This document shows positions 22,735 to 37,010 of a DNA stretch of 37,010 bases, piece by piece. A program made the position numbers and the translations under genes. The notes beneath the pieces were generated by a model. It searched no databases. It was not told the DNA's origin and saw nothing but the letters and a program-made list of their open reading frames with translations. The DNA is from a virus: the IMG/VR virus record IMGVR_UViG_3300049489_000385, positions 1-37,010 of that record. One strand, 5' to 3'. The first letter of the stretch is position 1; the number at the start of each line of letters is the position of its first letter.

Positions 22735-23948
22735 GACCGGAAATGATTTTAGAAGGGGCGCTTACAGCTCTAGAAAAAGCTCAGCCGGTTACTAATTTGA
22801 TGACTGGCGCTAGCAATATGCAGAAGTTACAGCAAGGGCAGATTCAGAATCAGCTTTTGAGCCAGCAAGCGCAACAAAATAAGGTAATGAATCCGCTATT
22901 ACAGCAAGAAGGAGTTCTGAGCAACCAGCTATCGCAACAAACACTTGATGTTAATCAACAAGCATTGAACGAAGCCCAGAAAAAGCAGTTTATTGGGCAA
23001 TTAGGCATGGCGGCCAAGGTGCTCAAGCCATTTGTTGACCAAGGCGACTTGCTTGGCGCTGCTGGCGCTGTGCGATCATTGCAAGGAATTGGGCTACCAC
23101 CTGAAGTCATGCAAGACATCGATGGAATGATCGCAACCGGCGACATGAGTACGTTGCAACAGCATATTAATGCAATAGAGCAATTTGGAGCTACCTCCAA
23201 CATTCCGAAAATAAAAGCGACCCATTACGATGAAGATGCAGGATGGACGGGTATTACTGACACAGGAGAAGTCTTCGTTAAACCAGTAGCCACAGGTCAA
23301 CCAACACGGATGCAGCGGCGGTTGCAGGAAATGCAGGCGCAAATAGCGACAGAGCAGGCTAAAAGCGGAATACTTGTAGATCAAACAAAACAGGTGGAGC
23401 AGATTAAGCAGCGAGAGGCAAGAGTCTCGGAAATAACCGAAGAGCTAAGCAAGCGAAATAGGGACTGGGCAAGAACAAACACAAAACTTACAGAAGCTTT
23501 ATCCTTAGCTAAGGATGCTACGCAGGGTATTGCGGGTGAAGCCAAGACGAAATTAAGCTCTTTGTTACCTGGAATCGATGTTACAAACGAAGCGGCGTTA
23601 GATTCAGCATTGCAACAATTAGCGCTTGAGCAACTGAGCTCATTTGTTGGTCAAACAACTAATTATGAGTTTGGCGTTGTGCAAAACATAACAGGCAAGC
23701 TCGGGAACTCAAGGGAGGCGAACATAGCGCGGCTGAACTCATTAAAACGCGCAGCGTGGTTTAATCAGCGTGAATATGACCAATTCAAAAACCACGTTAA
23801 GCAGGGCGGAGAGCCTGACGACTTTAGCTTTAATTTTGACGAGCATGTAAAGCTGGGCGAAAAGACATACACGCTTAAAGATATACGGGACACGGCAGCG
23901 GCAAATAATCTAACTATTGAAGATCTGTTCAAGAGGCTTGACAAATAA
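22725..23948 (+). CDS. Internal virion / DNA ejection protein
   Basis: 407 aa, Gln-rich and helical. 'MILEGALTALEKAQPVTNLMTG', then a Q-rich stretch (35-85), a coiled coil (about 200-260, 'EEMQAQIATEQAKSGILVDQTKQVEQIKQREARVSEITEEL'-like), and 'SFVGQTTNYEFGVVQNITGKLGNSREANIARL', a motif shared with P22 gp20-type proteins. It overlaps the previous gene by 10 nt (ATGCCACTAA). It leaves the virion with the DNA (family knowledge). Confidence 0.72.
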   Translation: MPLRPEMILEGALTALEKAQPVTNLMTGASNMQKLQQGQIQNQLLSQQAQQNKVMNPLLQQEGVLSNQLSQQTLDVNQQALNEAQKKQFIGQLGMAAKVLKPFVDQGDLLGAAGAVRSLQGIGLPPEVMQDIDGMIATGDMSTLQQHINAIEQFGATSNIPKIKATHYDEDAGWTGITDTGEVFVKPVATGQPTRMQRRLQEMQAQIATEQAKSGILVDQTKQVEQIKQREARVSEITEELSKRNRDWARTNTKLTEALSLAKDATQGIAGEAKTKLSSLLPGIDVTNEAALDSALQQLALEQLSSFVGQTTNYEFGVVQNITGKLGNSREANIARLNSLKRAAWFNQREYDQFKNHVKQGGEPDDFSFNFDEHVKLGEKTYTLKDIRDTAAANNLTIEDLFKRLDK

Positions 23949-26161
23949 TGCCTATTATCGATCTGGATACTGGCGAATACATGGATGATGCAAAGCTAGC
24001 AGAGTTTGAAGCTAAGCGATTACAGCAACCTAAGTCGTTGCCAACAGAGCAGCAACCATCTGCATCTAGTGAGGTTGGAAGGATTATTGATCTGGATACT
24101 GGCGAATATATCGACCAACAGCAAAAGCAACCAGAAACGCCTATTGATCAAGAGCCTTTACCTACGAACATGGGTGGTCATATGGCTCGATCAAACATGC
24201 AAATAAATCGCAATCGTGAGCTAGAACGCCAAGTTATGCGATATCGCGCAGGTGATTTAAGCAGCTATGATGTTTCACCAGAACAAATGGAGGCAATTAG
24301 GGCAAAGCGTATTGCGGATATCCCTGAAATTACAGGAAGCTTTAAAGAGCTAAGCAATAACCTAGGACTTAAACAAGCGCTAATAGGAATGACGGCTTTT
24401 GACCCTGATGAGTTTGGGGCGATACTGACAAAAGCAGAACCAAAAATAGGGATAGTAACAACGCCAGAAGGCGAACGTTTGGCAATTAATCGCGAAACTA
24501 ATGAAGCTATGTCTATCAATAAAGTCGGCCCTAGTTGGCTTGATGCTATTCAATTAGGCGGCGCGGCGGCCATGTTCACGCCAGCAGGTAGGTTGTCTGG
24601 CATAGGCAAGCAAACCGCAGGAGCGATAGCTACACAATCGGCTATAGAGGGCGCGCAACATCAATTAGGCGGTGAATTTAATCCGGCTGATGTTGCTATA
24701 GCTGGCGCAGCGGTTCCGGTAGTTGCGTTAGGCGGTAAATATTTGGGCGGAAAGTGGCAACTAATGAAGGACAAGATGCGATTAAATAATAATCTAATCG
24801 ACACGGCCACCGGTCTACCAGTTCCAGCATTTGAACGAGCGCTAAAAAAAAGGAATATAGACTTTGGCGCGCTTGTTGATGACATAGATTCGCTACCTAT
24901 TATTAGATCTGCGCGAACACCTGAAGAAACAGTGGATGAAATAATTAAGCATCAGTTAAAGACAGGTAAACGAAGTAACACTCTTTATCAGTTTAGACTT
25001 GAAGACGGCAATATAGTAGATGATTTAGTGGGTAAAGAGGCTGTAAGGCAGGGTTACAAGAAGGGTGACGTAGTTGCCGCAAAGATGGCAGATGAACCAA
25101 CTCGGCGCGAAATGGAGAGGATGCTATTGACCCAGCGCGCCATACATTCAAACTCATCCAAAGCTAAGGATATGAGGCCTTCAGACATCCCAGGTGAGGC
25201 ATTAATGGGCAGATTTGAATATATCAAAAATGACGCCGCCAAAAAAGTTGCTGAATTAAATAAAATCGCCAACAGTGAATTCAATATAGGGAAAAACCTG
25301 ATTGAACATGAATCCACAAAAGGTGGGAGACTGAAGGGTTTACAAATAGATACGACGAATATTGAAAGCAGGCTATTAAAAGAGCTGAACGACCTGAGGA
25401 TTTTTGTACCAGACGGGACGCCGTTACAGGAATTTTTGACAAACAAAGCTACGCATGAATTTGTAGGTTCACAAATCACTAAAGACAAAGCCTCTCAAAA
25501 AGTTATTAAGGACGTTTTCGATATATTGCGCGAACATGGAAATGCAGATGCTTTTACAGCGCATAATATCAAACGCCAGTTAGACGCGATGATTGACTTT
25601 AGAAAACAGTCAAAGGAAGGGCTAACCGAATCAGGCCGAAGGTTTGCAAAGGCGATAAGGCACGAGTTAAATGAATCTATTCGCAAGGTGTCACCTAAAT
25701 ATGCAAGAGTAAACGACGACCTCAGTAAAGCCATAACATCCATGAATAACTTGCAGGAGGCACTAGGCGGGTCAATTCATGTATTTGACGATGGCGCAGA
25801 GCAGGCGGTAGGAACTAAACTAAGGACTCTATTTAGCAACTATTCAACGCGCAAAAATCTAGATAACGCAGTTAATGAGATTGATTCGGTAGCAAGAGAT
25901 CTAGGCGGAAAATTTAATACTGACGTCAAAGATTTGACTAATTTTGCTAGCGTTTTAGATGATAGATTTGGCGCAATTGGTGCACGAAATTCATTTCAAG
26001 GTCGAATTGATTCGACCTTGAATGTTCAATCATTGCGACCGTCCCAAATAGTTAAAGATAAAGTTGCAAAAGAAGCTATGGCAAAAATTGAATCAATGCA
26101 GAATATAAACGATACCCAAGCGTTTAACGTAATGCAGAAAATATTGAGAGGTCAAAAATAA
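23948..26161 (+). CDS. Large internal virion / ejection protein
   Basis: 737 aa. The N-terminus carries the repeat IIDLDTGEY twice (residues 3-11 and about 46-54), also duplicated in DNA (23953 and 24083). A hydrophobic Gly/Ala region (about 205-275) is followed by a long helical C-terminal half ('MLLTQRAIHSNSSKAKDMRP', 'VARDLGGKFNTDVKDLTNFA'). It is last of the three ejection genes, in the place of P22 gp16, which helps DNA cross the membranes. No lytic domain is visible. Confidence 0.68.
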   Translation: MPIIDLDTGEYMDDAKLAEFEAKRLQQPKSLPTEQQPSASSEVGRIIDLDTGEYIDQQQKQPETPIDQEPLPTNMGGHMARSNMQINRNRELERQVMRYRAGDLSSYDVSPEQMEAIRAKRIADIPEITGSFKELSNNLGLKQALIGMTAFDPDEFGAILTKAEPKIGIVTTPEGERLAINRETNEAMSINKVGPSWLDAIQLGGAAAMFTPAGRLSGIGKQTAGAIATQSAIEGAQHQLGGEFNPADVAIAGAAVPVVALGGKYLGGKWQLMKDKMRLNNNLIDTATGLPVPAFERALKKRNIDFGALVDDIDSLPIIRSARTPEETVDEIIKHQLKTGKRSNTLYQFRLEDGNIVDDLVGKEAVRQGYKKGDVVAAKMADEPTRREMERMLLTQRAIHSNSSKAKDMRPSDIPGEALMGRFEYIKNDAAKKVAELNKIANSEFNIGKNLIEHESTKGGRLKGLQIDTTNIESRLLKELNDLRIFVPDGTPLQEFLTNKATHEFVGSQITKDKASQKVIKDVFDILREHGNADAFTAHNIKRQLDAMIDFRKQSKEGLTESGRRFAKAIRHELNESIRKVSPKYARVNDDLSKAITSMNNLQEALGGSIHVFDDGAEQAVGTKLRTLFSNYSTRKNLDNAVNEIDSVARDLGGKFNTDVKDLTNFASVLDDRFGAIGARNSFQGRIDSTLNVQSLRPSQIVKDKVAKEAMAKIESMQNINDTQAFNVMQKILRGQK

Positions 26162-28125
26162 TGGCGTGGACACCAATCAGCAATACGGCTATCCAGTATT
26201 CAAAGCTAGCCGCTGGAACGTCAGCAGATGGCTATTATCTCAAATTTTACGCAGATGGAACGACGACGCCCATCAGCATGGCAACCGACTCGACAGGCGG
26301 CACAACGCTCGCTAAATGCGCTTTAAATTCGCTCGGTTACCCTGTAAACGGATCTAATGCGGTATTTATACCACACATTGATCAAACGTATAAGCTGGCG
26401 CTTTACACAAATGCGACTGATGCAGATGCGAACACGCTCGCAAATGCAGTATGGGTTATTGATGATTTAATACAAACTGACCACAGTTTACGGGAGGAAC
26501 TAGCGGCGACTGGTGGGTTATTGTTAATTGGCAACGTTGCCACAGTCGCTGAACTGGTAACACTATCCCCATCATCTGGCGATACCGTTGAAACGGTTAG
26601 CTACTATGCGAGCACGATACCAAGTGGTAGTGGAAAATATACCGCTGCTACGCTGGCAGATATTAGGACTGCTAAAGGTGACGGCGGGTGGGTTCCTGAT
26701 GAGTTGATAGATCATACTGCTGCTAATGGGCTGGTATGGATGTTGCAACACAATGGTGAGATTAATTTATATCAAGCTGGTGCTGTTGGGGATAATACGA
26801 CTGATGACTACGATTCAATAGATGCGGTTTTTCAGTTAACTAACGTAAAGGCAATCATACCCCAGTCTACATTTTTGATTAACACCGGATTAACAGCACC
26901 GTTATGCGAATCGGTGGGTGGATACGGGATCAACGTTTCAACTATTAGAGCTGGAAATGGTGTCACTAAAGCTCTGTCAATAAAGACAAGCGCTCCTAGC
27001 CACTTGCATGATTTTCAGATAACGGGCAACGCAACAACTAATGCTAAAGGATTATATGTAGGTGACGCAACGCTAACCGCTCACATTGCAATGGATAGAG
27101 TTGCAGTAAGAAATTTCACAGGCACTGGTGCGGTAGGTCTATATGTTTTGGACGGAGTAGCAATTGATTATAACCATTGCGAATTTACCGGAAGTACCAG
27201 AAATATAAGAGCTGATGCGGCAGTTGTGACAAATGGCGCTCCGACTACACAAGTGTTCAGTGGTGGTCTATGCGCAGACGCAACAGAAGAAGGTGCATAC
27301 CTGACTGGTGCGAGTCAATTTATATTTACTGATCAGTTCGTTTTCCAGAACAATAGTAAGCATGGGCTTTTAGCCGAAATTGATACAGGATCGAACGTAG
27401 TAGATTTAGACTTGAATGGATGCTATTTTGAAGGGAATTACGGATCTACGACAACGGAGTACCAAGCGAAAGTAATCGGGACAGCAGCAGCTACAGCTAG
27501 AGTTAAATTTAGACATAATTTTTTCAACGGTAGTGGGTCGACTGCTAAATCAATTCACATTACCGGATCAAATTGCCGTGAATGCCAGCTAGATAATAAC
27601 CAAGTTCCCAACTTAACAGGTCAAATTTTAGTTGACGGATCGGCACAAGGGAGGTCTATAAACTGGCCAGGTAATCTGGCAGAGACAGTACTAACAATCA
27701 CAGATCCAACGTTGTTTTATAATACGGCGACGTTTGAAACAGAATGGTCGGCGTGGACTCCGACATACGCCAGTTCAGTTGGTAACGCTGCTACGTCTTT
27801 TACTGGCGCTGGAACTGTTACAACATCGCTTGCGCGGTGGAAACGTATAGGTAAAACACTACACATGGTTGTTAGTTTTGGGGCCACATTAAACGCGGTG
27901 ACTCCGACATATTTGAGCTTTACACTACCAAACGGGTATTCCGCAAAAACTGCAATAATGTATACTCCGGCATCTGTTCTTGATAACACTACGTATTTAG
28001 GGACTGGGGTAGTTTCGACAGCTGGAACAACAGCTATCCGCGTCTATAAGAGTTTAGCTGCCCCAGCGTTTACGTCAGGATCTGCGGTAGAGTGTAACGT
28101 AATTTTCACAATTGAAATTGTGTGA
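26161..28125 (+). CDS. Tailspike with right-handed beta-helix
   Basis: 654 aa. Residues 1-105 (MAWTPISNTAIQYSKLAAGT.., 'YYLKFYADGTTTPI', 'QTYKLALYTNATDADAN..VWVIDDL') form the virion-binding head domain. 'AVGDNTTDDYDSIDAVFQ' opens a pectate-lyase-like beta-helix to about residue 500. The C-terminal 130 residues ('WTPTYASSVGNAAT..FTLPNGYSAKTAIM') are a beta-sandwich trimer domain. It probably binds, and may cleave, host surface polysaccharide. The last codons form a dyad, CACAATT/AATTGTG. Confidence 0.82.
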   Translation: MAWTPISNTAIQYSKLAAGTSADGYYLKFYADGTTTPISMATDSTGGTTLAKCALNSLGYPVNGSNAVFIPHIDQTYKLALYTNATDADANTLANAVWVIDDLIQTDHSLREELAATGGLLLIGNVATVAELVTLSPSSGDTVETVSYYASTIPSGSGKYTAATLADIRTAKGDGGWVPDELIDHTAANGLVWMLQHNGEINLYQAGAVGDNTTDDYDSIDAVFQLTNVKAIIPQSTFLINTGLTAPLCESVGGYGINVSTIRAGNGVTKALSIKTSAPSHLHDFQITGNATTNAKGLYVGDATLTAHIAMDRVAVRNFTGTGAVGLYVLDGVAIDYNHCEFTGSTRNIRADAAVVTNGAPTTQVFSGGLCADATEEGAYLTGASQFIFTDQFVFQNNSKHGLLAEIDTGSNVVDLDLNGCYFEGNYGSTTTEYQAKVIGTAAATARVKFRHNFFNGSGSTAKSIHITGSNCRECQLDNNQVPNLTGQILVDGSAQGRSINWPGNLAETVLTITDPTLFYNTATFETEWSAWTPTYASSVGNAATSFTGAGTVTTSLARWKRIGKTLHMVVSFGATLNAVTPTYLSFTLPNGYSAKTAIMYTPASVLDNTTYLGTGVVSTAGTTAIRVYKSLAAPAFTSGSAVECNVIFTIEIV

Positions 28126-28165
28126 GGCGTATGGTTTAAAAAATATCAATTGAGGATGCTGTAGC

Positions 28166-28489
28166 ATGATTGATAAACGATCCACCGACCCTAGGTTTGA
28201 AATGCTTGCGCAGAAAATAGACTTTCATGATGAGAAACTAACCAACCACATTACTGAATTTGATCGCCATATTCAGCGCGAAGAAGCACAAGACAAGCTG
28301 TTAGTCGAAGCGATAGACCGGCTAAGCACCGGTCACGATAAGCTAGTAGCCATAGCTGAAGCCAACAAAGAGTCGTGGCAGGTATGGTTTGATATCCATA
28401 CCACCACAAACAGGCTAAGGCGGTTTGCCTTGTGGCTTGGAGGCTTTGGGCTTTTTGCCGGGTTTGTCACTTGGTGTTTAGTTAAGTGA
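28166..28489 (+). CDS. Coiled-coil protein with C-terminal membrane helix
   Basis: 107 aa. Charged coiled-coil N-terminus (MIDKRSTDPRFEMLAQKIDFHDEKL..), then 'RRFALWLGGFGLFAGFVTWCLVK', one TM helix at about 84-105. This tail-anchored form after the tailspike suits a lysis-timing or holin-like protein, or a virion accessory. GAGGATGCTGTAGC precedes the ATG. Its 3' end overlaps the convergent gene at 28482 by 8 nt. Confidence 0.65.
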   Translation: MIDKRSTDPRFEMLAQKIDFHDEKLTNHITEFDRHIQREEAQDKLLVEAIDRLSTGHDKLVAIAEANKESWQVWFDIHTTTNRLRRFALWLGGFGLFAGFVTWCLVK

Positions 28490-28616
28490 CACAAAAGCTT
28501 ATTTGTGATATTGGCTCGCCTTTGATCACCAAAGTGATATGAACAACATCGTCAACTTGATCAACGTCAAGCTTGATGTTGTCTTTTAACCAGTCGATTA
28601 TCATTTGCTCACTCAT
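28482..28616 (-). CDS. Small hypothetical protein
   Basis: 44 aa, MSEQMIIDWLKDNIKLDVDQ.., a helix followed by two beta strands ('VVHITLVIKGEPISQISFCVT'). The start overlaps the upstream stop (ATGA). It is the last gene of the leftward block and meets the rightward 28166-28489 gene tail to tail with an 8-nt overlap. Function unknown. Confidence 0.65.
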   Translation of the reverse strand: MSEQMIIDWLKDNIKLDVDQVDDVVHITLVIKGEPISQISFCVT

Positions 28617-28849
28617 ATGTAATCAACTTCTTCGACATTATCCATAGTCGTGTTCTCGACGGCAGTTAACTGTTTCTGTAGCTCGACTATCTGTGCTCTG
28701 ATATCGATCTTTGCACCAAGTATTGCGCCGTCAAGGGTTGTGTAGCAGTGCTGTTTTTCACCCTCTGATTTCGATGAAAATGGAAATTCATCGACTTTCA
28801 CTCTTTGAATAGTGCCAATGTTGTTCCAGTCCCAATAATATAACCACAT
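28613..28849 (-). CDS. Hypothetical protein
   Basis: 78 aa, AGGAG 8 nt before the ATG. The aromatic N-terminus (MWLYYWDWNNIGTIQRVKVD) is followed by a helical heptad region 'GAKIDIRAQIVELQKQLTAVEN'. Translationally coupled to the 44-aa gene downstream. No family recognised. Confidence 0.7.
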   Translation of the reverse strand: MWLYYWDWNNIGTIQRVKVDEFPFSSKSEGEKQHCYTTLDGAILGAKIDIRAQIVELQKQLTAVENTTMDNVEEVDYI

Positions 28850-28875
28850 TTCATATTCTCCTATATTTTCAGTGA

Positions 28876-29142
28876 TTAAAAATTAGCGTTGTAAAATTGC
28901 TCGATCATCTGATCAAACTTCTCTTTTGATACCTGCATACCCTCGCCGTCTGGGCGTTGTATCCAAAATGACCCATCGCCACAGTCTGTTATTGTGAAAT
29001 TTGGTGTTTCAATAAAGTCTTTCAAAGCTCCATCCAAAATGACCCATATTGCCTTCAGTTCAAAGCGCAAGACTCTTGCCGCAGTACGTAGCGGCTGGCT
29101 TGTATTAGAGCTTTCGCTCAAGTCTGCGCGACGCCAACCCAC
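28876..29142 (-). CDS. Hypothetical protein with unclear start
   Basis: The C-terminal half ('DFIETPNFTITDCGDGSFWIQRPDGEGMQVSKEKFDQMIEQFYN') looks like a real small beta-helix protein. The GTG at 29142 has no SD, and a TTG near 29025 with GGAG close by is an alternative. The 16-mer ATCCAAAATGACCCAT occurs twice within the frame (28961-28976, 29032-29047), 71 bp apart and in different reading frames. The 5' part may therefore be a recombined remnant. Confidence 0.5.
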   Translation of the reverse strand: MGWRRADLSESSNTSQPLRTAARVLRFELKAIWVILDGALKDFIETPNFTITDCGDGSFWIQRPDGEGMQVSKEKFDQMIEQFYNANF

Positions 29143-29190
29143 GCTTGACAGAGTCTTGCTAAATAAATCTATAGTGCCGCCGATTATCCC

Positions 29191-29362
29191 TCAAAACAAT
29201 GTTTCGTCAGAATATTGGGCTCGTTTATTCCACCACTCCAATGTAAAAAGTCGTTCGTCCCTGCCAACCGGTGATAACTCGCATTCTTGGTTGCTACACC
29301 ATGCGTAAAAAACAGACTCGCACGGACTATCACCTTCTATTCAAATTGATGCCTTTGCGCAT
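29191..29362 (-). pseudogene. Small gene with a single-base frameshift
   Basis: ATG at 29362 (GGGAG 9 nt upstream) gives MRKGINL. After one extra A the other frame continues IEGDSPCESVFYAWCSNQEC.. to TGA at 29193-29191. The span of 172 bp is 3n+1, as expected for one inserted base. The product would be about 56 aa with two Cys and 'LEWWNKRAQYSDETLF'. The 29194-29434 interval otherwise has only this remnant and GC-rich hairpins. Confidence 0.5.
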
Positions 29363-29434
29363 ACGGGGCGGCTCCCGTTTCGCTCGCTCCGGCTCCCCAG
29401 AGCTTATTAAGCAATGCGCTTGCCAGCGAAATCG

Positions 29435-29668
29435 TTAATCTTTATTAGTTACCTTCAACTTGTCGATATGGGCCGCGAGGCCTAGGCCTAGGCATAGGTA
29501 TTGCAAATCCTCGAAATTGACATAAGGACAATGCACATAGTCATTCACTAGCGCAAAACTCAGCTCGGCGGGCATTGTCATGCCCTCTTGAGTTTCGGTT
29601 AGCACCTTGCCGGTTTGATCCATCGTTAAATAGTTTTCGTTCCATCGTCGTCTAGTCAATTTCGTCAT
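29435..29668 (-). CDS. Hypothetical protein
   Basis: 77 aa, MTKLTRRRWNENYLTMDQTG.., GCGGA 6 nt upstream. The mixed sequence 'PAELSFALVNDYVHCPYVNFEDLQYLCLGLGLAAHIDKL' contains a Leu/Gly-rich helix. The start overlaps the headless frame upstream. No family recognised. An attC-like site at its end is not convincing. Confidence 0.6.
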   Translation of the reverse strand: MTKLTRRRWNENYLTMDQTGKVLTETQEGMTMPAELSFALVNDYVHCPYVNFEDLQYLCLGLGLAAHIDKLKVTNKD

Positions 29669-29670
29669 TT

Positions 29671-29781
29671 TGTTCCGCCCAATGTAGGAACGCTTCTTTT
29701 TTGCTGATTGGTGCCCCTAGCGTTCCGTCTTCTTGCAGTATTAGATAAACCGCATCGCTGTGGACAAGCCGTTGTGCTTGG
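29671..29781 (-). pseudogene. Headless small frame
   Basis: An open frame reads ..QRLVHSDAVYLILQEDGTLG then APISKKEAFLHWAEQNDEID and stop, but it opens at the stop of the previous gene and has no start codon or SD. It follows the degenerate cassette-end at 29760-29789 and looks like the tail of a gene whose beginning was replaced by recombination. Confidence 0.4.
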
Positions 29782-29783
29782 GG

Positions 29784-29966
29784 TTATGTTCCAAAATGCT
29801 CAACGCACTTGGCGTAAACCGACTTTATAGAATCAATTGATATTCTAACGTCAATTTCACCTTCAGGGCCAAGTTTTACGGTTTGATAAAACTTCCCAGA
29901 AAACACCTTTTTCAAATCATCGTCTGACAGTTTACGCGGCATCATCACCGTGTTTGTTTCGCTCAT
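29784..29966 (-). CDS. Hypothetical protein, paralogue of the 30331-30576 product
   Basis: 60 aa. 'ETNTVMMPRKL' at the start and 'IKSVYAKCVEHFGT' at the end match 'ETKTVMMPRAL' and 'IKAIYAKCVEHFGT' in the cassette gene at 30331-30576; the middle differs and lacks the Cys motif. GGAAGG precedes the ATG. Its stop lies in ACATAAC followed by CCC, like attC site C, but no matching R' follows (the hairpin CAAGC/GCTTG remains). Confidence 0.65.
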   Translation of the reverse strand: MSETNTVMMPRKLSDDDLKKVFSGKFYQTVKLGPEGEIDVRISIDSIKSVYAKCVEHFGT

Positions 29967-30019
29967 AAGCGCCTTCCAACTTCAATAAATTTCGCGTTTC
30001 GCCCACTTATACGACAATC

Positions 30020-30064
30020 GTATAACACCTAAAATTGCGATTGTCGTCTAATAAAGTGTTAGGC
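30020..30064 (-). other. attC-like site D (degenerate)
   Basis: R'' is GCCTAAC (30064-30058) and holds the TAA of the 68-aa gene. It is the exact complement of R' of site C. A GTTATAC at 30026-30020 could be R', giving a 45-nt site, but the inner arms then pair poorly. Alternatively, perfect 10-bp arms ACGACAATCG/CGATTGTCGT (30011-30020, 30038-30047) extend the site to 30001, where R' reads AGTGGGC and has lost GTT. Confidence 0.5.
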
Positions 30065-30265
30065 GCTAATGTTTTTCTTCGGCACTAGAAATGCTTTATC
30101 TTCGTAAAATTCAATAGGCTTTTGATCTGTAAACGAAGGAATCATAACTACCGCTGTCATGTTCGACGGTAAGTTTTTACATAAAACAATAAAATTCAGC
30201 AGAACAGGTTCTTTCCCTGCTAGCCACTCTATTATCTTTAATTTCCACATAGGCAAGTTGTTCAT
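30059..30265 (-). CDS. Cassette gene, hypothetical protein
   Basis: 68 aa, MNNLPMWKLKIIEWLAGKEP.., with a beta-rich middle ('VLLNFIVLCKNLPSNMTAVVMIP') and basic end. AGGAGAG precedes the ATG by a few bases. The gene begins 30 nt after the R' of site C, and its stop codon lies in R'' of site D, the usual plan of a one-gene integron cassette. No family recognised. Confidence 0.7.
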   Translation of the reverse strand: MNNLPMWKLKIIEWLAGKEPVLLNFIVLCKNLPSNMTAVVMIPSFTDQKPIEFYEDKAFLVPKKNISA

Positions 30266-30289
30266 TTTCTCTCCTAAACTTTAATAAAA

Positions 30290-30336
30290 GCCTAACAAGG
30301 CATTCCAGCGTATGCCCGCTGAATGCGGGGTTATGT
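30290..30336 (-). other. attC-like site C
   Basis: On the minus strand: R'' ACATAAC (containing the stop of the gene), CCC, L'' GCATTCAGCG, loop GGCATA, L' CGCTGGAATGC, CTT, R' GTTAGGC (consensus GTTRRRY). L' has one extra G against L'', the extrahelical base used by integrases for strand choice. This is the clearest of the four sites, 47 nt. Confidence 0.8.
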
Positions 30337-30576
30337 TCCGAAATGCTCAACGCACTTGGCGTAGATTGCTTTGATTGTTGTCCATGAGATTCCTACTTGG
30401 TTAAGCGTATAACCATCCCCGTGGCATTTTTTGCATAACTCCCCATCTTCATCTATCCCATTTTCACAAAACACACATTCTTCTTTAACGTCTTCTGTAA
30501 ATTCCCCAATCAATAAAGCCTTAGCGCCATTCTCGGCGGTTAAAGCTCTTGGCATCATAACTGTCTTAGTTTCCAT
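30331..30576 (-). CDS. Cassette gene, small zinc-motif protein
   Basis: 81 aa from METKTVMMPRALTAENGAKA; AGGTGA stands 6 nt upstream, whereas the longer frame from 30597 would start inside the cassette-start repeat. CVFC..CKKCHGDG is a DnaJ-like two-knuckle zinc motif (about residues 33-52). The end 'IKAIYAKCVEHFGT' is shared with the 29784-29966 protein. The stop lies in R'' of site C. Function unknown. Confidence 0.72.
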   Translation of the reverse strand: METKTVMMPRALTAENGAKALLIGEFTEDVKEECVFCENGIDEDGELCKKCHGDGYTLNQVGISWTTIKAIYAKCVEHFGT

Positions 30577-30593
30577 TTGATCACCTATGTGTA

Positions 30594-30642
30594 ACATAAC
30601 AAAGCATTATTGCGGACAATCCGCAAAATAGCTGGGTTATGC
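30594..30642 (-). other. attC-like site B
   Basis: Minus strand: R'' GCATAAC, CC, L'' AGCTATTTTGCGGA, loop TTG, L' TCCGCAATAATGCT, TT, R' GTTATGT. The arms pair imperfectly in the middle, as attC arms do. R'' is the exact complement of R' of site A. The gene stop (30647) is 5 nt before R''. 49 nt. R' departs from GTTRRRY at the fifth base (T). Confidence 0.72.
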
Positions 30643-30646
30643 ATCT

Positions 30647-30856
30647 TCATTCTTTCAGGTGGCTGACCCTGCCATCCAACTTGTCCCGCAGTTCAAGAGC
30701 AGCAACACACGCCCACTCAGCGTCTTTTCTGCCCTGGCGTTCTCCGGCTTTGTACGCCGCTTGTGCCACCTCTTCGTAACCGATTCCAAAGCGTTCGGCG
30801 CGGCCCTTGAACGCCTTGTACAACTTGCTTCGTTCTTTCCAGTCTGCAAAGCTCAT
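30647..30856 (-). CDS. Cassette gene, hypothetical helical protein
   Basis: 69 aa, MSFADWKERSKLYKAFKGRA.., almost fully helical and charged ('YEEVAQAAYKAGERQGRKDAEWACVAALELRDKLDGRVSHLKE'). GGAG stands 8 nt before the ATG, about 25 nt after R' of site A. One-gene cassette between sites A and B. No family recognised. Confidence 0.72.
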   Translation of the reverse strand: MSFADWKERSKLYKAFKGRAERFGIGYEEVAQAAYKAGERQGRKDAEWACVAALELRDKLDGRVSHLKE

Positions 30857-30880
30857 CTTTTTTCTCCGTAGTTAAGAGAG

Positions 30881-30950
30881 GCATAACCACTCGGTCAACC
30901 GGACAGCCATACGCTGCTCTCCGGTCTTCCGGTTACCTCAGACGTTATAC
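30881..30950 (-). other. attC-like site A
   Basis: Minus strand: R'' GTATAAC (holding the TAA of the MT-A70 gene), GTC, L'' TGAGGTAACCGG, a 26-nt variable loop, L' CCGGTTGACCGA, GTG, R' GTTATGC. L' carries one G that has no partner in L'', an extrahelical base, and the GTC/GTG spacers match an unpaired central spacer. Total 70 nt, within the usual 57-141 nt. Confidence 0.78.
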
Positions 30951-31526
30951 CTCATTTCCCCATGCCTCCCATCCGTCACGCTTTCTTCGCGCAAACAGTT
31001 CAAGGTATGGCCCCGGTGACACCGTTTCGACAATCTCCTGAAAAGCATCAGGCTTAACACTGTGCTTCCCACGCTTCCAGTTCCACCAAGTAGTCGGCAC
31101 CCTCTTCATAGCTGGCAGCGTGCCTTTTCTCGCAAATAAGCAAAACTCTGCTGTGTTGCAATACGTTCCACCCAAACCAACACCCATAGGGTTCTTTGCC
31201 CAGACCAACAAAGACGAAGGGCGAAACCCCCACGCCCGCGCCACCTTGTAAGCGGCTTCAATCTTCGCGTTTACCGTCCAAAGGTACAGGTGAGCCGCGT
31301 CAGCAGTGGGCGGGCAAAGCGCCTCAATCTCGGCGTCGCTCATGGTCGGGTAAATCAACTGCCGTACGTGGCTGCCAAACGCGCTACCTTTAGCCGGGTG
31401 CGGTGTTTTCCGGTTCAAGTCAATCTGCCACGGTGGGTCTGCAACAATAGTTTTCCAGTCGCCGTGAGGTATAACACGGCGGTCAACACGGACGCCTGAC
31501 GGCGGTGTTGGTTGTTCGGTGTTCAT
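30945..31526 (-). CDS. MT-A70 family adenine methyltransferase
   Basis: 193 aa. DPPW at residues 30-33 (TIVADPPWQ) is the catalytic motif; 'LYLWTVNAKIEAAYKVARAWGFRPSSLLVWAKNPMGVGLGGTYCNTAEFCLFARKG' and 'SVKPDAFQEIVETVSPGPYLELFARR' are the conserved MT-A70 blocks. Phage members methylate N6-adenine in DNA and can protect against restriction. It overlaps the next methyltransferase by 4 nt, higher in GC than the cassettes downstream. Its stop lies in R'' of attC site A. Confidence 0.85.
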   Translation of the reverse strand: MNTEQPTPPSGVRVDRRVIPHGDWKTIVADPPWQIDLNRKTPHPAKGSAFGSHVRQLIYPTMSDAEIEALCPPTADAAHLYLWTVNAKIEAAYKVARAWGFRPSSLLVWAKNPMGVGLGGTYCNTAEFCLFARKGTLPAMKRVPTTWWNWKRGKHSVKPDAFQEIVETVSPGPYLELFARRKRDGWEAWGNEV

Positions 31527-32281
31527 TGGGTGTCGCCTTTCACTTCTACGTTAGCAGGCAAAAGCATGTCGCCCTGCACCGCCGTGTCGCCAGCGCCGAT
31601 TTTCGCATCCTCGAACAGCCGGGGCTGTGCGTACGCCTGTTCGATCCTCCGACACGCTATGTCAAAGTATTTGCGCTCCCGCTCAATTCCGACGAACTGC
31701 AAACCCATCCGAGCGCAGGCCACGCCAGTCGTCCCGCTGCCCATGAATGGGTCGCAAACCGTTGCAACATCGTCGGGGGCTTGCCGTATCGCCCACTCGA
31801 TCACCTTCACCGGCTTTTGCGTCGGGTGGTCAAACCGCTCTTCGTTTCCTTCCCTGGCAAACCCGTTCCAAAGGCATTCAATCCGCCGCACGGCTTTCGG
31901 CAGGTTCGTCCACGCCAGCTCGCACTCGGCAAAATTACCGTTGGTCTTTTTGTCCCAAACCAGGATGCATCTTGTCGGCGGCAGTGTGTAGTAGTTGCCG
32001 CCAAAAATAATCTGGTGCTGCGATTTCGCCAGCATCAAGCCAATAAGCCAAACCGGCGGGGCTTCGGTGTCCCACTCTGTTTGCTCATAGGTGCGCTTGG
32101 CTACTCGCCGGTGTCCGTGCCCGACCACGGTTCCGCTTGCTTTGTGGGCCGCCGCGTCTGCGCCGATACCATACGGCGGGTCGGTCATTAGCAAATCAAA
32201 GTCAGGCAGCAGCGGCAGCACTTCGCGGCAGTCGCCGTGAATCAGGCGGCAGTTGCCTATCGTTACCTCATCGAATGCCAT
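31523..32281 (-). CDS. Beta-class site-specific DNA methyltransferase
   Basis: 252 aa. DPPY at 34-37 comes first and the SAM motif DPFMGSGT at 177-184 later, the beta-class order of N6-adenine or N4-cytosine enzymes. The 'GGNYYTLPPTRCILVWDKK' and 'RFDHPTQKPVKVIEWAI' blocks are typical. The target is unknown; GANTC is worth testing because of the GAGTC array at 1247. No restriction partner is present. GAGG precedes the start; a 16-codon frame (MALKMN..) overlaps upstream. Confidence 0.85.
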   Translation of the reverse strand: MAFDEVTIGNCRLIHGDCREVLPLLPDFDLLMTDPPYGIGADAAAHKASGTVVGHGHRRVAKRTYEQTEWDTEAPPVWLIGLMLAKSQHQIIFGGNYYTLPPTRCILVWDKKTNGNFAECELAWTNLPKAVRRIECLWNGFAREGNEERFDHPTQKPVKVIEWAIRQAPDDVATVCDPFMGSGTTGVACARMGLQFVGIERERKYFDIACRRIEQAYAQPRLFEDAKIGAGDTAVQGDMLLPANVEVKGDTQ

Positions 32282-32323
32282 GCTGCCTCAACACAAAAAT
32301 ATTCATTTTCAGCGCCATTTCTC

Positions 32324-32545
32324 CTAATCAACAGCCTTACGGTATGCTTTGCTAGTTTTGTAATATTCTGGATTATCAGTAGACTGTGCTAAATCATCCG
32401 CAAGGCTCATCATGTCGCTAAACGCTAACCAATGAGCTTCTGCTTTTTTAGTATCAGGCGTTTGTTGCGCAGAGTTTTTATGAGCAACAGCCCTGCCAAT
32501 CAGTCGGCCGATAACTTCTACAATCTTGTTTTCGTCAACAATCAT
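32324..32545 (-). CDS. Hypothetical helical protein
   Basis: 73 aa from the ATG with AGGTGG 5 nt upstream (MIVDENKIVEVIGRLIGRAV..); a GTG three codons earlier lacks an SD. Helical, with 'EAHWLAFSDMMSLADDLAQSTDNPEYY'. Its stop overlaps the SD of a short frame before the methyltransferase gene. No family recognised. Confidence 0.68.
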   Translation of the reverse strand: MIVDENKIVEVIGRLIGRAVAHKNSAQQTPDTKKAEAHWLAFSDMMSLADDLAQSTDNPEYYKTSKAYRKAVD

Positions 32546-32576
32546 AATATCCACCTAATTAACCAGATTTTTGAAA

Positions 32577-32903
32577 CTAATCTCTCTGTGTGGCGGTCTC
32601 GTGCGCGTAACGCAGTAAATCTTGCAGACAAATCCATTCGCCATATGAGTAATGCGATCTGCCACACAAAAAAATGCGTTCGTTGTTGTCTATCTGACTC
32701 ACTTTGTCCTCAAGCGTTAGGCCACTGTCCCACCACGGACGTGTTTGGTTAGCCCGTGTCAGTACTGCCATCAGTGTTGCACCGTTCTCCAGCATTTCAT
32801 TTGCGTCCAGTGCATCCTTGCACTGTTGCTCGTACTCAAGGCATTGCGCAGAATCACGGAACTGTTTCCCGTCTTCTGCGGCGTAAAACGTGATTATTCT
32901 CAT
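32577..32903 (-). CDS. Hypothetical protein downstream of a hexamer array
   Basis: 108 aa from MRIITFYAAEDGKQFRDSAQ (AAGGGG about 7 nt upstream). It contains 'CLEYEQQCKDALDANEMLENG' and 'EWICLQDLLRYAHE'. The frame stays open through the 222-bp hexamer array to an ATG at 33167, which would add an 88-residue Arg-Gly-rich extension. I prefer the short form because of its SD. No family recognised. Confidence 0.7.
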   Translation of the reverse strand: MRIITFYAAEDGKQFRDSAQCLEYEQQCKDALDANEMLENGATLMAVLTRANQTRPWWDSGLTLEDKVSQIDNNERIFLCGRSHYSYGEWICLQDLLRYAHETATQRD

Positions 32904-32940
32904 CTCCCGCCCCTTGTTGAGTTTAATAAAATGTTGACAC

Positions 32941-33162
32941 CGACTGCGACCGCGACTGCGACTGCGAACGCGACCCCGACCGCGACTGCGACTGCGAACG
33001 CGACCGCGACTGCGAACGCGACCACGCCAACGACCCCGACCGCGACTGCGACCGCGACCCCGACCGCGACCGCGACCGCGACCACGACCGCGACCGCGAC
33101 CGCGACTGCGACCACGACCCCGACCACGACCCCGACCGCGACCGCGACCGCGACCACGACCA
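32941..33162. repeat. Hexanucleotide satellite of about 37 units (GCGACC/GCGACT)
   Basis: The 222 bp are built of 6-bp units, mainly GCGACC, with GCGACT, GCGAAC, CCGACC and ACGACC variants. It lies between two leftward genes. No stop occurs in any of several frames: Thr-Ala on the plus strand, Arg-Gly, Ala-Val or Ser-Arg on the minus strand. The minus strand has GG every 6 nt, allowing two-tetrad G-quadruplexes. Confidence 0.95.
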
Positions 33163-33194
33163 GTCATAGCCGGTTCGCATCATTGCCACGTTGT

Positions 33195-33524
33195 TCATAT
33201 TTGTGAGCTCGGTAATGCTGGTTTAAATTCCGCAACGTCAATTATTGACGTTGTGTTGATCCAAACCCCGTTTGGAAATGGCTCAACTTCGTTAAACGTC
33301 CCTTTTTTTAAACAGTCATAAAAGCGCCCCGTGTCTGCAATCCATGCAGCATTCGACAAAAACACAAACGCGCCTTTGATCTGTTCACATTTTCCGGTGT
33401 GAATATGCGTTACTGTACGCACCAGGTAGTTTTTATCAATTTCAAACGGACTGACGAACGTTTGAAATTGAAACAGTGCTGCCAGTTCTTTTGCTTGCTT
33501 AATTGTTAAATCGTCTAAGTTCAT
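33195..33524 (-). CDS. DUF6948-like phage protein
   Basis: 109 aa, MNLDDLTIKQAKELAALFQF.., then 'YLVRTVTHIHTGKCEQIKGAFVFLSNAAWIADTGRFYDCLKKGTFNEVEPFP', ending 'IIDVAEFKPALPSSQ'. This pattern (TI.QA.E.AALF start, YL.RTVT..TG, AAWIADTGRF) is the DUF6948 type found in many phages. AAGGGG stands 8 nt before the ATG. Function unknown. Confidence 0.75.
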   Translation of the reverse strand: MNLDDLTIKQAKELAALFQFQTFVSPFEIDKNYLVRTVTHIHTGKCEQIKGAFVFLSNAAWIADTGRFYDCLKKGTFNEVEPFPNGVWINTTSIIDVAEFKPALPSSQI

Positions 33525-33576
33525 TTTATCGCCCCTTGTTAGTTAATTTTGGCTATAAAGCCGCCCCTTGTTTAGT

Positions 33577-33705
33577 TTAGCAATTATGCATACGAAGTAA
33601 TTTGCGTTGCATGTCAATAAAAGCTTTTCGCTTTGACTCCGCTGCATACGGAAAGATCGCGACACCTATACTCAGGGCCGCCGCAAGGATTAAACTTTTC
33701 ATCAT
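33577..33705 (-). CDS. Tiny exported or membrane protein
   Basis: 42 aa: MMKSLILAAALSIGVAIFPY is a signal peptide or membrane anchor, followed by basic AESKRKAFIDMQRKLLRMHNC. The start lies in a repeat of ATGATGAAAAG, so two ATGs (33705, 33702) compete. There is no clear SD besides GAAAAG. Between 33525 and 33576 there is only leader sequence with two SD copies. Confidence 0.5.
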   Translation of the reverse strand: MMKSLILAAALSIGVAIFPYAAESKRKAFIDMQRKLLRMHNC

Positions 33706-33712
33706 CTTTTCA

Positions 33713-33775
33713 TCATCTTTTCATCAATCTGGTGACCCACTTAGATACTTTGCTTTCAGTTGCATCCTGAAACAT
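33713..33775 (-). CDS. Possible 20-aa coupling peptide
   Basis: MFQDATESKVSKWVTRLMKR, beginning 2 nt after the stop of the 33778 gene and ending in the ATGATGAAAAG repeat just before the next start. It has no own SD. It may only couple translation to the membrane peptide gene. Confidence 0.3.
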   Translation of the reverse strand: MFQDATESKVSKWVTRLMKR

Positions 33776-33777
33776 AA

Positions 33778-34071
33778 TCATTTGTTTTCATAGTTAGCCC
33801 ACCTTCGTTTTTGCCCTGCGCTTCTGTTGGAAAACTCCTTGGCCTTCTTCACAGCGATCACGCGCAGATCTTTGCAGCCTTTTCCTGGCGCACACCAAAT
33901 GCTCATTCCATCGTAATAACATTGAACGACACAATCTTTCGCCGGGTGTTTCTTGTTGCAGCATCGGCAGTAGATCAGTTCATCAGGATCAAACCCGCTA
34001 TGTACTTGAAAAGCGCCGCATTCATCTACAAAACTTGTAGCTGGTTGCATCTTTGGTGTATAAATGTGCAT
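33778..34071 (-). CDS. Hypothetical zinc-binding protein
   Basis: 97 aa from MHIYTPKMQPATSFVDECGA, beginning 1 nt after the previous stop; a longer frame up to 34242 would overlap the upstream gene. 'YCRCCNKKHPAKDC' and the later 'CAPGKGC' give a zinc-ribbon pattern. Basic C-terminus (SNRSAGQKRRWANYENK). Probably nucleic-acid related; no family. Confidence 0.65.
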   Translation of the reverse strand: MHIYTPKMQPATSFVDECGAFQVHSGFDPDELIYCRCCNKKHPAKDCVVQCYYDGMSIWCAPGKGCKDLRVIAVKKAKEFSNRSAGQKRRWANYENK

Positions 34072-34072
34072 T

Positions 34073-34351
34073 TCACAAATCCACAAAAACAAGTTGTGTG
34101 AGTAGTTTTCTGATTGTTTCGCCTCTGCAAACACATTCACCTTTTTTATCAAACAGACACCATTTACCGTCTTGATGCTTGATCTCGCAACCGAGTTCAA
34201 GCCGTGTTTGCAGCAGATCCAGTGCCGGAATAGTGCAATCAATCATCCCGCGTAGACTTTCGTTTTTTGTTTCCAGCGATGCTATTTGCTTGGCAGCATC
34301 ATTGATCATCGCGTTAAGCTGATCTTTTTTGATCGTGATTGTTTCGTTCAT
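34073..34351 (-). CDS. Hypothetical helical protein
   Basis: 92 aa, MNETITIKKDQLNAMINDAA.., helical first half with a coiled-coil pattern ('KQIASLETKNESLRGMID'), Cys-containing end ('WCLFDKKGECVCRGETIRKLLTQL'). GGAG stands 9 nt upstream. Next to recT in the leftward operon. No family recognised. Confidence 0.68.
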   Translation of the reverse strand: MNETITIKKDQLNAMINDAAKQIASLETKNESLRGMIDCTIPALDLLQTRLELGCEIKHQDGKWCLFDKKGECVCRGETIRKLLTQLVFVDL

Positions 34352-34386
34352 TTATCGTTCTCCAATACGTTAGATGTTTGTGCTGC

Positions 34387-35283
34387 TCAAATCTTATCCA
34401 TGGCCGCTTTGTAGTAAGCTCTAATGTCCTTGCGCTCAAACTCAGTCACCTTGTCGCCCAGCTCTGCAATGTCGTTGCCGCAGACTTTCAATTCTTCAAT
34501 TGTCGAACATTCATCAATGCTTCGTTTTGTGAATTTCACATAGTCAATCTTTGGCTCAGGATCGGCCTGCTTTTGTGTCTCTGGCCCTTTTTCAACAACG
34601 GGCTTTTCAGCTTGATTGGCTTTCTTCTCTGACGCCATTTTTACAGCGTCCATTAGATCGCGGCTTGCTGTAGATTGATCTGAGGTCTCGTTATCATAGA
34701 CAACATGCGCTGGCCCCATGTCATGCTGTTCTTCTGCTGTGTGCATACCCATGCTGATTTCAGGTGCCTTGGTTCGGATAAAGAAAGCAGCAGCACGGTA
34801 AGTGAGCATCAGTTCAGGCATCGTTTTCCACTTTGAACCGTTCTTGTTCATCCATCCTTCGTTGATCGCGGTTTGGATCGTGACCAGCGGCCCATGAACT
34901 CTTTCGCCAGTACTCAGTTCAATGGCAACGGCGCGGCATCCCCAGTTATTTTGTCCTTCTGTGCCTTCAAACTCATATTGCAACGAGCTGAACCGGCCTG
35001 ACGAGTTAAAACAGGCAATCAAAAACTGTGACGAAAACGAAGGCTTTTCGTGAACGATGTAAATATTTTGCATGACCATAAACGGGTCAGCTTTCATGCG
35101 CTGGGCCATGCCTAACGCGATCATGACGTTAGCGGGTTTGTTCTGGAACGTGGTAGGGACAATACTTGACCGGGCCAAATAATCTGACATTTTCATGGTT
35201 TCTTCAAAACGCTGAATACTCGAAAAAAAACTGTCATTACTGACGCTCACCGGCATTTGGTTCACTGTTGAAATAGCATTCAT
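34387..35283 (-). CDS. recT: RecT-family single-strand annealing protein
   Basis: 298 aa. 'NVMIALGMAQRMKADPFMVMQNIYIVHEKPSFSSQFLIACFNSSGRFSSLQYEFEG' and 'WGCRAVAIELSTGERVHGP', 'KWKTMPELMLTYRAAAFFIRTKAPEISMGMHT' are the RecT core (about 50-200), followed by a charged linker and a C-terminal helix. It anneals single strands made by the neighbouring exonuclease. GGAGG stands 8 nt before the ATG, inside the end of the exonuclease gene. Confidence 0.88.
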   Translation of the reverse strand: MNAISTVNQMPVSVSNDSFFSSIQRFEETMKMSDYLARSSIVPTTFQNKPANVMIALGMAQRMKADPFMVMQNIYIVHEKPSFSSQFLIACFNSSGRFSSLQYEFEGTEGQNNWGCRAVAIELSTGERVHGPLVTIQTAINEGWMNKNGSKWKTMPELMLTYRAAAFFIRTKAPEISMGMHTAEEQHDMGPAHVVYDNETSDQSTASRDLMDAVKMASEKKANQAEKPVVEKGPETQKQADPEPKIDYVKFTKRSIDECSTIEELKVCGNDIAELGDKVTEFERKDIRAYYKAAMDKI

Positions 35284-35286
35284 GTT

Positions 35287-36102
35287 TTAGCCCTCCATTT
35301 TCTTGATAAAGTTGTAACTCAATTCGGCTTGATACAGGCCGTTAAAGTAGCCAGACTCAGAAGCGCGTTTAAACGCCTCCAGGTTGGCTTTGTATTCATA
35401 TCGGCCATGTTCTACCGCTTGCGCGGGCAACGTCACGCAGCGCACCGGATAGCGGCCTAATTCAATCGTTTTCTGGATCACCAAGAATATAAAGGTGTCT
35501 TTTTCTTCACCGCAGGCGTTTACGCCATCGATATAAAATGGTGCCTGGACGTGATAGCGATAATCTTCAATGGAATACCGTTCAAAATTGGCCAGGGTGT
35601 CGGTCGTTTTAACGTCCACCAGAAAACGACTATTCGATATGTTCTTGTCTGGTCGACACTTGCAAAGGATGCCGGTTTCTGGATCGTTCCAATAGTATGA
35701 CGATTCAGCAGCGCCATCAGCTTCGATCAGATAACGGGCAAACGGGTGAGCCATGACTGACCCGAACATCAACTGCAATTTTTTATGCTCTTCAGTGGTT
35801 AAAATCTTTTTGTGCTTGTTCTCCTCCTCGAATGCCTTCCTTTCTGCCTTGCCATCATTGGTTCGGCCATTGATCTCAGGCATTACCGCAAACTCTTTAT
35901 CGTACAAATGAGGCTCCAGCAACATCGTGTGCATTGCTGACCCGAAATTCAGAGCATCAAGTTTATCTTCATCGACCGGGCAATTTTGCGCCCACTCTAA
36001 AGACGACTGATCACGCGCAAACATGTCCAGCTTAGTTTTGCTGATACCGGCGCTGGCGTGATAGTCAGCATTTGATAAGTTCGGATAGACCCCATTACTC
36101 AT
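35287..36102 (-). CDS. RecE-like exonuclease (PD-(D/E)XK)
   Basis: 271 aa. 'GVYPNLSNADYHASAGISKTKLDMF' and 'FGSAMHTMLLEP' open the RecE/exonuclease VIII nuclease domain. Catalytic elements are the PD at 151-152, D163-V-K165 (LVDVKTT) and QAPFY at 186-190. It lacks the long N-terminal part of E. coli RecE, as most phage forms do. Paired with recT 3 nt downstream. AAGGG precedes the start by 7 nt. Confidence 0.85.
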   Translation of the reverse strand: MSNGVYPNLSNADYHASAGISKTKLDMFARDQSSLEWAQNCPVDEDKLDALNFGSAMHTMLLEPHLYDKEFAVMPEINGRTNDGKAERKAFEEENKHKKILTTEEHKKLQLMFGSVMAHPFARYLIEADGAAESSYYWNDPETGILCKCRPDKNISNSRFLVDVKTTDTLANFERYSIEDYRYHVQAPFYIDGVNACGEEKDTFIFLVIQKTIELGRYPVRCVTLPAQAVEHGRYEYKANLEAFKRASESGYFNGLYQAELSYNFIKKMEG

Positions 36103-36104
36103 TT

Positions 36105-36257
36105 TTAAGCCCTTGAATAGCTAGCTATTGAACGTTGACAGTCCCGCGTTTCGCTTTCACTCGCGAACGGCAGGAATTTGTTTAGATTATTAATCCGCCT
36201 TTGCAGACTCAGGATCTGATCAGCGGCTGTTTTGCGGCTCGTATGACCACAAAACAC
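36105..36257 (-). CDS. Small hypothetical protein (GTG start)
   Basis: 50 aa read from GTG directly after the previous TAG: VFCGHTSRKTAADQILSLQR.., ending in 'SETRDCQRSIASYSRA'. Helical, basic. The SD (AGG) is only 3 nt away, so translation may rely on coupling. It ends 3 nt before the exonuclease start. The gene contains a 14-bp palindrome, AATAGCTAGCTATT (36116-36129). Confidence 0.45.
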   Translation of the reverse strand: MFCGHTSRKTAADQILSLQRRINNLNKFLPFASESETRDCQRSIASYSRA

Positions 36258-36410
36258 CTACCTGAGAAGCTCTCTAAGCTCCATTTCAAGCCGGTCAATG
36301 CGCTGGCAGTCCTGGCCATATGCGCCTTGGTCTGCATATTTCAGATTCTCGCGCAGGTCTTTAATCTCAGCCCTCAGAGCGTCGATTCTTTCTTGATTTG
36401 TTTGCATCAT
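36258..36410 (-). CDS. Small coiled-coil protein
   Basis: 50 aa: MMQTNQERIDALRAEIKDLR followed by ENLKYADQGAYGQDCQRIDR and LEMELRELLR. Heptads suggest a coiled coil. GGGGGA lies just before two ATGs, and it overlaps the upstream gene by 44 nt in another frame. Function unknown. Confidence 0.6.
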   Translation of the reverse strand: MMQTNQERIDALRAEIKDLRENLKYADQGAYGQDCQRIDRLEMELRELLR

Positions 36411-36537
36411 TCCCCCAACCTATCGTACTTATGTCGCTTAACCCGCGCTTGGCAATATTTCTTGCAGCGCGCCACGAAAGTACAAACGCCAAAAACAGAA
36501 ACCCTAACGACATTGCATAAGCTGCATCTTCAACCAT
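36367..36537 (-). CDS. Small membrane protein
   Basis: 56 aa: MVEDAAYAMSLGFLFLAFVL then SWRAARNIAKRG; one TM helix (about 8-22) with a positive tail, so the tail should be cytoplasmic. The start overlaps the previous stop by 8 nt (ATGGTTGA). Function unknown; perhaps a membrane-active early protein. Confidence 0.6.
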   Translation of the reverse strand: MVEDAAYAMSLGFLFLAFVLSWRAARNIAKRGLSDISTIGWGNDANKSRKNRRSEG

Positions 36538-36700
36538 AAATAATGTCCAGGTTAAAAACCGTACCTGGGTTGATCTCGCGAGCGAGCTTTTTAGTCTCGT
36601 AACGAGCTATGCGAATGCGGTTCTCGCGGGTCATTGGGTAAAGCTCGACAGCTCTTGGGCGGTGTTGCGGGTGAAGCTGGACTATGTTATTGGTTTGCAT
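36530..36700 (-). CDS. First gene of the leftward operon, hypothetical
   Basis: 56 aa: MQTNNIVQLHPQHRPRAVEL.. with a basic middle ('TRENRIRIARYETKKLAREI') and 'PGTVFNLDIIYG' at the end. AAGGGA stands 7 nt before the ATG. As first gene after the leader it could be a small regulator, for example an antitermination factor, but nothing in the sequence proves it. Confidence 0.62.
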   Translation of the reverse strand: MQTNNIVQLHPQHRPRAVELYPMTRENRIRIARYETKKLAREINPGTVFNLDIIYG

Positions 36701-36883
36701 TTAGTGATCCCTTGAGTTTTGAGTTGATGGGGTAATCCCGGCTATAAGACCCTTTAATCGGGGGTCGCCGCATGACACCGGGGATCATGCGGCCAAGGCC
36801 ATAATGTTGCCCCTATGGGCTGCTGGTCGCTATCCAGCTGAAATAATAGGGAACATCTTAGCTAGAGATGTTCCCTCCAGTTC
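36701..36883 (-). ncRNA. Candidate structured leader RNA, part 2
   Basis: Gene-free stretch before the leftward operon, continuing from 1-240 in the circular map. Strong stems: AGGGAACATCT/AGATGTTCCCT (36848-36876, 11 bp), GCCGCATGA/TCATGCGGC (36767-36793, 9 bp), GACCC/GGGTC (36748-36766). Between the last stem and the first gene lies copy 2 of the 20-bp direct repeat. Leader, attenuator or origin are all possible. Confidence 0.45.
36717..36736. repeat. 20-bp direct repeat, copy 2
   Basis: TTTTGAGTTGATGGGGTAAT, identical to 244-263. It ends the presumed leader, about 17 nt upstream of the first leftward gene and partly overlapping its SD context. Confidence 0.8.
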
Positions 36884-37010
36884 TAACTAAGTCGATTCGC
36901 CGCCCTACTTTCTGCGCCCCTTTTGGGGGCCGATTTGGGGCAGCTCACCTACTAGTTAGAGAGCTGGTTAGCTCATTACTGAGCCTTTCGCGGAAACCTT
37001 GCGGCCTCTT
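36884..37010. repeat. Terminal direct repeat, right copy (contig overlap)
   Basis: Identical to 1-127 over all 127 bases; see the left copy. It shows that the contig closes on itself. Confidence 0.9.

Follow-up and report, generated by a model that had tools for sequence, protein, structure and literature searches.

An array of integron-type cassettes in a phage early operon carries its genes antisense to their attC sites

The window analysed here, 37,010 bases long, covers positions 1-37,010 of the IMG/VR virus record IMGVR_UViG_3300049489_000385. Its plus strand encodes the terminase, portal, major head protein and head closure genes, and its minus strand the ExoVIII and RecT genes. Five cassettes are located within the leftward early operon of the phage, and all five of their genes are on the minus strand, with the attC sites on the plus strand (Table 1). 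Megablast of positions 20001-36900 against 50,697 records returned no near-identical phage, the Rfam scan of the window returned 0 matches, and no relatives of the gene at 29435-29668 were found in viral contigs. The TIGR02249 profile search reports no integron integrase (IntI) in the 37-kb record, which may be a fragment. Of a complete integron (intI with attI and Pc), intI is therefore missing from the record, and no integron integrase accompanies the cassettes, as in a CALIN. Throughout, the absence of IntI is based on the TIGR02249 search, and for the window additionally on protein scans, which found no recombinase domain in the larger proteins scanned. The TIGR02249 search is of the same kind as a PF00589 search that returned 0/6 records, although one of these (the contig of L088) holds a lambda-type integrase, and the PF00589 negative is thus unreliable alone.

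Table 1. Features of the cassette array and of the phage ORF that it probably interrupts.
Feature	Positions	Strand	Evidence and remarks
Whole array, putatively inserted, 1728 bp	29784..31511	+	Order c4, c3, c2, c1, c0 in attC polarity; core sites and flank join
c4 gene, 60 aa	29784..29966	-	Both ends resemble the c2 protein (alignment A1)
attC4, weak	30020..30064	+	Located via core boxes GTATAAC and GTTAGGC; model non-significant on both strands; c3 core rule 6/6
c3 gene, 68 aa	30059..30265	-	No relatives found in viral contigs
attC3	30290..30336	+	38.8 bits R1, 41.7 bits R2
c2 gene, 81 aa	30331..30576	-	EaA-like phage family, four-cysteine motif
attC2	30594..30642	+	22.0 bits R1, 30.4 bits R2
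c1 gene, 69 aa	30647..30856	-	Relatives in L088, L089, L090
attC1, aadA-like type	30881..30950	+	50.1 bits R2
c0 gene, MT-A70 DNA methyltransferase, 193 aa	30945..31526	-	First codons within attC0 and phage flank
attC0, partly decayed	31469..31517	+	16.8 bits R2, model match extending to 31556
3' part of putatively interrupted 48-codon phage ORF	29652..29783	-	Flank join
5' part of the same ORF: ATG and first five codons	31512..31526	-	Sequence; flank join

Two covariance models were used for attC detection. For R1, the training set was 21 attC sites taken from known integrons, namely class 1 cassettes carried by plasmids and by a genomic island, the integron of Shewanella phage M16-3 and an integron piece of a Vibrio phage; the window was excluded, and R1 recovers its own training sites on the gene strand. 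R2 was built from 73 R1 matches from outside the window. R1 scores attC3 at 38.8 bits on the plus strand (E 1.9e-7) versus 4.9 bits on the minus strand, and attC2 at 22.0 bits (E 0.0037) versus 9.8 bits. R2 recovers attC1, missed by R1 probably through a register shift in the R1 stem, with 50.1 bits (E 1.1e-9), attC3 with 41.7 bits (E 9.6e-8) and attC2 with 30.4 bits (E 4.1e-5), all on the plus strand, as well as a weak fifth site at 31469 (16.8 bits, E 0.061). Three significant sites are thus found within 661 bp, where a CALIN is defined by at least two close attCs. The site at 30020-30064 is non-significant on either strand (13.4 and 11.0 bits with R2) and is doubtful. In a simple hairpin scan, which is weaker evidence than the covariance models, two attC sites reach 34 and 37, against a maximum of 33 over 8 Markov-shuffled windows, but 34 is likewise the score of an unrelated hairpin at 36881. 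A preliminary description of this DNA had placed four attC sites at gene ends; all four are present there, three of them as significant model matches, whereas 30020-30064 falls short and the significant matches lie on the plus strand instead of the minus strand that it had assumed.

The attC polarity is that of the plus strand, and every cassette gene of the window is antisense to its own attC. At the two sites given an R1 score on each strand, the plus reading leads the minus reading by 12 and 34 bits, the extrahelical base falls in L'' solely under the plus reading, and at 30290-30336 the attC form is the best fold for the minus strand (the attC bottom strand) only. A usual integron cassette has its gene running toward the attC, which allows expression from the integron promoter; here the attCs are on the plus strand and the genes on the minus strand. 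The preliminary description had read the order of the attC boxes on the leftward strand, which the R1 scores, the extrahelical base and the best fold contradict, and this reversed reading hid the antisense genes. The stop codons that it placed inside R'' lie, under plus polarity, in the complement of R'.

In integrons, a cassette begins with the R' bases that follow the G, and these are complementary to the R'' that closes the same cassette, since both derive from one circular attC. Read in attC polarity, this core rule holds at 6/6 positions in c3 (TTAGGC..GCCTAA), c2 (TTATGT..ACATAA), c1 (TTATGC..GCATAA) and c0 (TTATAC..GTATAA), and at only 4/6 in c4 (TTATGT..GTATAA). Over all loci, 6/6 pairing is reached by 110/130 cassettes and, within single sites, by 29/164; inside each of the array's hairpins, the complementarity between R'' and R' is inexact. 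Pairing of the ends across the cassette, and not within the hairpin, is the opposite of what is expected of a terminator hairpin. The motif TAACNNNNCGGTCAAC(A)CGGAC is common to attC0 and attC1, with 2 matches in the window versus 0 in 100 shuffles. The G+C content of the cassettes is uneven, 38-56% compared with 46% for the phage.

Cuts at G|TT after 29783 and after 31511, followed by joining of the flanks, produce an open 48-codon ORF, MNTEQPQAQRLVHSDAVYLILQEDGTLGAPISKKEAFLHWAEQNDEID, which overlaps both its upstream and downstream neighbour genes. The predicted empty site, i.e. the sequence expected for the uninterrupted locus, would be GAACAACCCCAAGC. Since one in three cut points (28/84) keeps the frame of the joined ORF, its openness supports the insertion but does not prove it. 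Neither phage records nor PHROGs yielded a relative of the restored 48-aa product, and its existence therefore depends entirely on the join; no sister phage was found in which the site is empty. As read from the sequence, the methyltransferase frame starts at the ATG of the interrupted ORF and then crosses attC0. The segment 29760-29790 was considered as a truncated further attC and rejected as native phage sequence beside the junction. Cassettes had previously been proposed for 30001-30950 and they are indeed located there, but the array spans 29784-31511 and comprises a fifth cassette, that of the methyltransferase, beyond this interval.

The c0 protein has an 88% identical relative in the viral contig L156. 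At the DNA level, identity is 85% over 533 bp that start at GTTATACC and end at GAGGTATAACG, both predicted core sites, and the limits of homology are exactly the predicted G|TTATAC and GTATAAC boundaries. Outside the core sites homology vanishes (24/60 and 12/70 bases), and window positions 31512-37000 have no detectable match in the L156 contig. This CALIN cassette is thus found elsewhere as a discrete mobile unit. L156 contains seven attCs according to the model and a head-tail adaptor gene; an ORF at the contig end, which we read as adenylosuccinate synthetase, suggests that the contig may be a provirus. At L156:2957-3060, as in the window, the start codon of the methyltransferase lies inside the neighbouring attC, and the first residues of the protein therefore depend on the neighbour cassette.

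Relatives of the cassettes are seen in other phages beside different neighbours. The c2 family is common in phages, and a scan of bacterial genomes, made with narrower patterns as its alignment included the short c4 protein, returned a single match, in a Desulfobacterales contig without attC. Acquisition from a host (super)integron, as put forward in the preliminary description, is not borne out by this distribution. Neither does the locus correspond to what that description regarded as refuting its proposal, an absence of attC matches together with homologous phages in which the same genes are stable content. The ends of c4 and c2 have 37 bp in common at 97% identity (29780-29816 and 30327-30363) while the gene middles differ; the common end is perhaps a chimera or an old gene conversion.

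Integron-type cassettes in a phage devoid of an integrase, the core of the initial proposal, are upheld by the attC models, the L156 homology and the lack of a TIGR02249 match. On sequence grounds, it is highly probable that a five-cassette CALIN was inserted between the G and TT of a small phage gene, a secondary site that resembles attG. An integron integrase most likely made the insertion and, as none was found in the phage, was probably supplied by the host. The exact core-site boundaries would fit insertion by host IntI acting in trans, and likewise the spread by host IntI that the preliminary description put forward. Secondary integron sites (attG, G|WT) receive insertions without target duplication. 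Likewise, the array lies between G and TT without target duplication; unlike attG insertions, it lies in a phage gene, holds five cassettes and has no visible integrase. Points against this explanation as a whole, the antisense genes included, are the non-significant model score of attC4, the 4/6 core rule of c4 and the sense cassettes of Tetrasphaera phage TJE1. The hairpins might instead be ordinary terminators or repeats between phage genes that resemble attC by chance, since gene ends often carry hairpins, attC4 scores weakly and the hairpin at 36881 scores equally in the simple scan. However, the independent attC models contradict this reading, the ends pair across the cassette rather than inside the hairpin and the L156 homology breaks exactly at the core sites, leaving it very improbable. 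It is also unlikely, if less markedly so, that a single ancient capture was followed by homologous recombination (RecT/ExoVIII, lambda-Red-like), and not IntI, moving cassettes between phages. The phage encodes ExoVIII and RecT, and the 3' end of 37 bp common to c2 and c4 would agree with such exchange, whereas the L156 homology stops at the 7-base core with flanks devoid of homology and both junctions of the insertion fall exactly at G|TT.

The antisense orientation extends to other phages. Loci fetched as relatives of window proteins yield eight R1 matches, and in every case the cassette gene is on the other strand. To remove this bias, viral contigs were scanned with the attC motif TTARCTCARGCGTTAGRY alone, giving 50 loci; IntI is present in 1/23 of the attC-bearing records checked. 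Counting by longest ORF proved noisy in G+C-rich contigs and was replaced by a weighing of coverage, start codon and ribosome-binding site. In the 18 IntI-less contigs found by motif, 47 clear cassettes are antisense and 3 are sense, versus 2 antisense and 27 sense in IntI arrays (Fisher p about 1e-15 per cassette). Counting contigs is safer, because cassettes of one contig are non-independent and some calls come from short ORFs: all IntI-less contigs give 21 antisense, 1 sense and 4 ties, and those with IntI 0 antisense, 5 sense and 1 tie (p 7e-5), the two IntI loci L146 and L148 being one contig. Six antisense contigs were checked; in five of them the part read includes genes for packaging or virion proteins (terminase, portal, tail or head-tail adaptor), and the sixth encodes phage-like replication proteins. 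Two published phage CALINs are antisense as well, that of Pseudoalteromonas phage H101 with plus-strand attCs and minus-strand genes, and that of MW202573 with the reverse arrangement. The sole clear IntI-less phage array with sense genes is that of TJE1 (L101:242-1519), whose host is an actinobacterium. An antisense cassette of another phage array, at L100:2138-2755, carries a Mom-like DNA modification gene of anti-restriction type (phrog_1384, E 4e-29). Prophage contigs display long near-perfect inverted repeats with CACAAC..GTTGTG ends (L019:574-646 and 890-993; L024:908-1011; L073:124-259), which have an attC-like outline, yet return no R1 match and coincide with no tRNA.

In Vibrio cholerae, moving attC bottom strands to the lagging-strand template increases excision dramatically (PMC11023631). 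In the window, the array points rightward while its genes read leftward with the early operon, which would replace the integron promoter Pc for cassette expression. With the genes antisense, the recombinogenic attC bottom strand is the coding strand, and this strand would be the lagging-strand template when the operon is replicated co-directionally. Such a position should help the bottom strand to fold and phages to exchange cassettes within a host that carries IntI, and high cassette turnover may pay in phages. We tentatively propose that phages could hold their own pool of integron cassettes, apart from the bacterial pool, with genes turned relative to attC so that coding falls to the recombinogenic strand, which in co-directional operons is the lagging-strand template, expressed under phage operons and using host IntI in trans to swap anti-restriction and accessory genes.

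The main rival for the orientation bias, which we regard as rather unlikely, is host selection: phage genes would persist in host integrons only if antisense to Pc, hence silent, and phages would take them from there. Bottom-strand recombination sets the orientation of cassettes at attI, allowing expression from Pc (PMC11023631), and the cassettes include phage-type genes such as the Mom-like one; a narrow genome search found no host integron with these antisense cassettes, which speaks against it. An artefact of sampling or ORF calling is less probable still. Short cassettes in G+C-rich contigs do yield ORFs on both strands, five contigs entered via the window's own cassettes and the motif covers one attC subtype, but the motif-only set still stands at 47 to 3, the same subtype is mostly sense in the IntI contig L146, the orientation of H101 and MW202573 uses depositors' gene calls and the polarity model was trained solely on sense arrays.

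The presence of integron cassettes in phages is established: Qi et al. 2023 described phage integrons together with 17 CALINs, noted methyltransferases as cargo and showed recombination with IntI1 for five of six phage attCs, attCs of H101 and TJE1 among those that recombine (PMC9892861). The window array resembles the CALINs of H101 and TJE1 in its attCs without IntI, small unknown genes and DNA methyltransferase cargo (PMC9892861). Unlike in that account, its insertion point is resolved and the counterpart of one cassette has been located in another viral contig. H101 is antisense like the window, although the text of PMC9892861 is silent on orientation, and TJE1 differs in being sense. With sedentary chromosomal integrons and prophages with integron pieces (Shewanella phage M16-3, Vibrio phage p16), the array shares attC structure and the core rule; those systems have IntI and sense cassette genes, whereas the array has neither. 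The antisense rule seems unreported: no statement of it was found in the literature, of which most subscription journals and all figures were outside coverage, leaving priority unproven. If phages do hold an opposite-orientation pool, cassette flow between phages and bacteria would be sorted by orientation, the strand bias of attC would gain a second biological use, and phage accessory genes (DNA methyltransferases, the Mom-like modification gene) would be a candidate source for the unresolved origin of cassettes. Elsewhere in the window, at 32906-33190, 12-18 bp repeats give the ORF 32577-33167 a long N-terminal Arg-Gly/Arg-Ser run.
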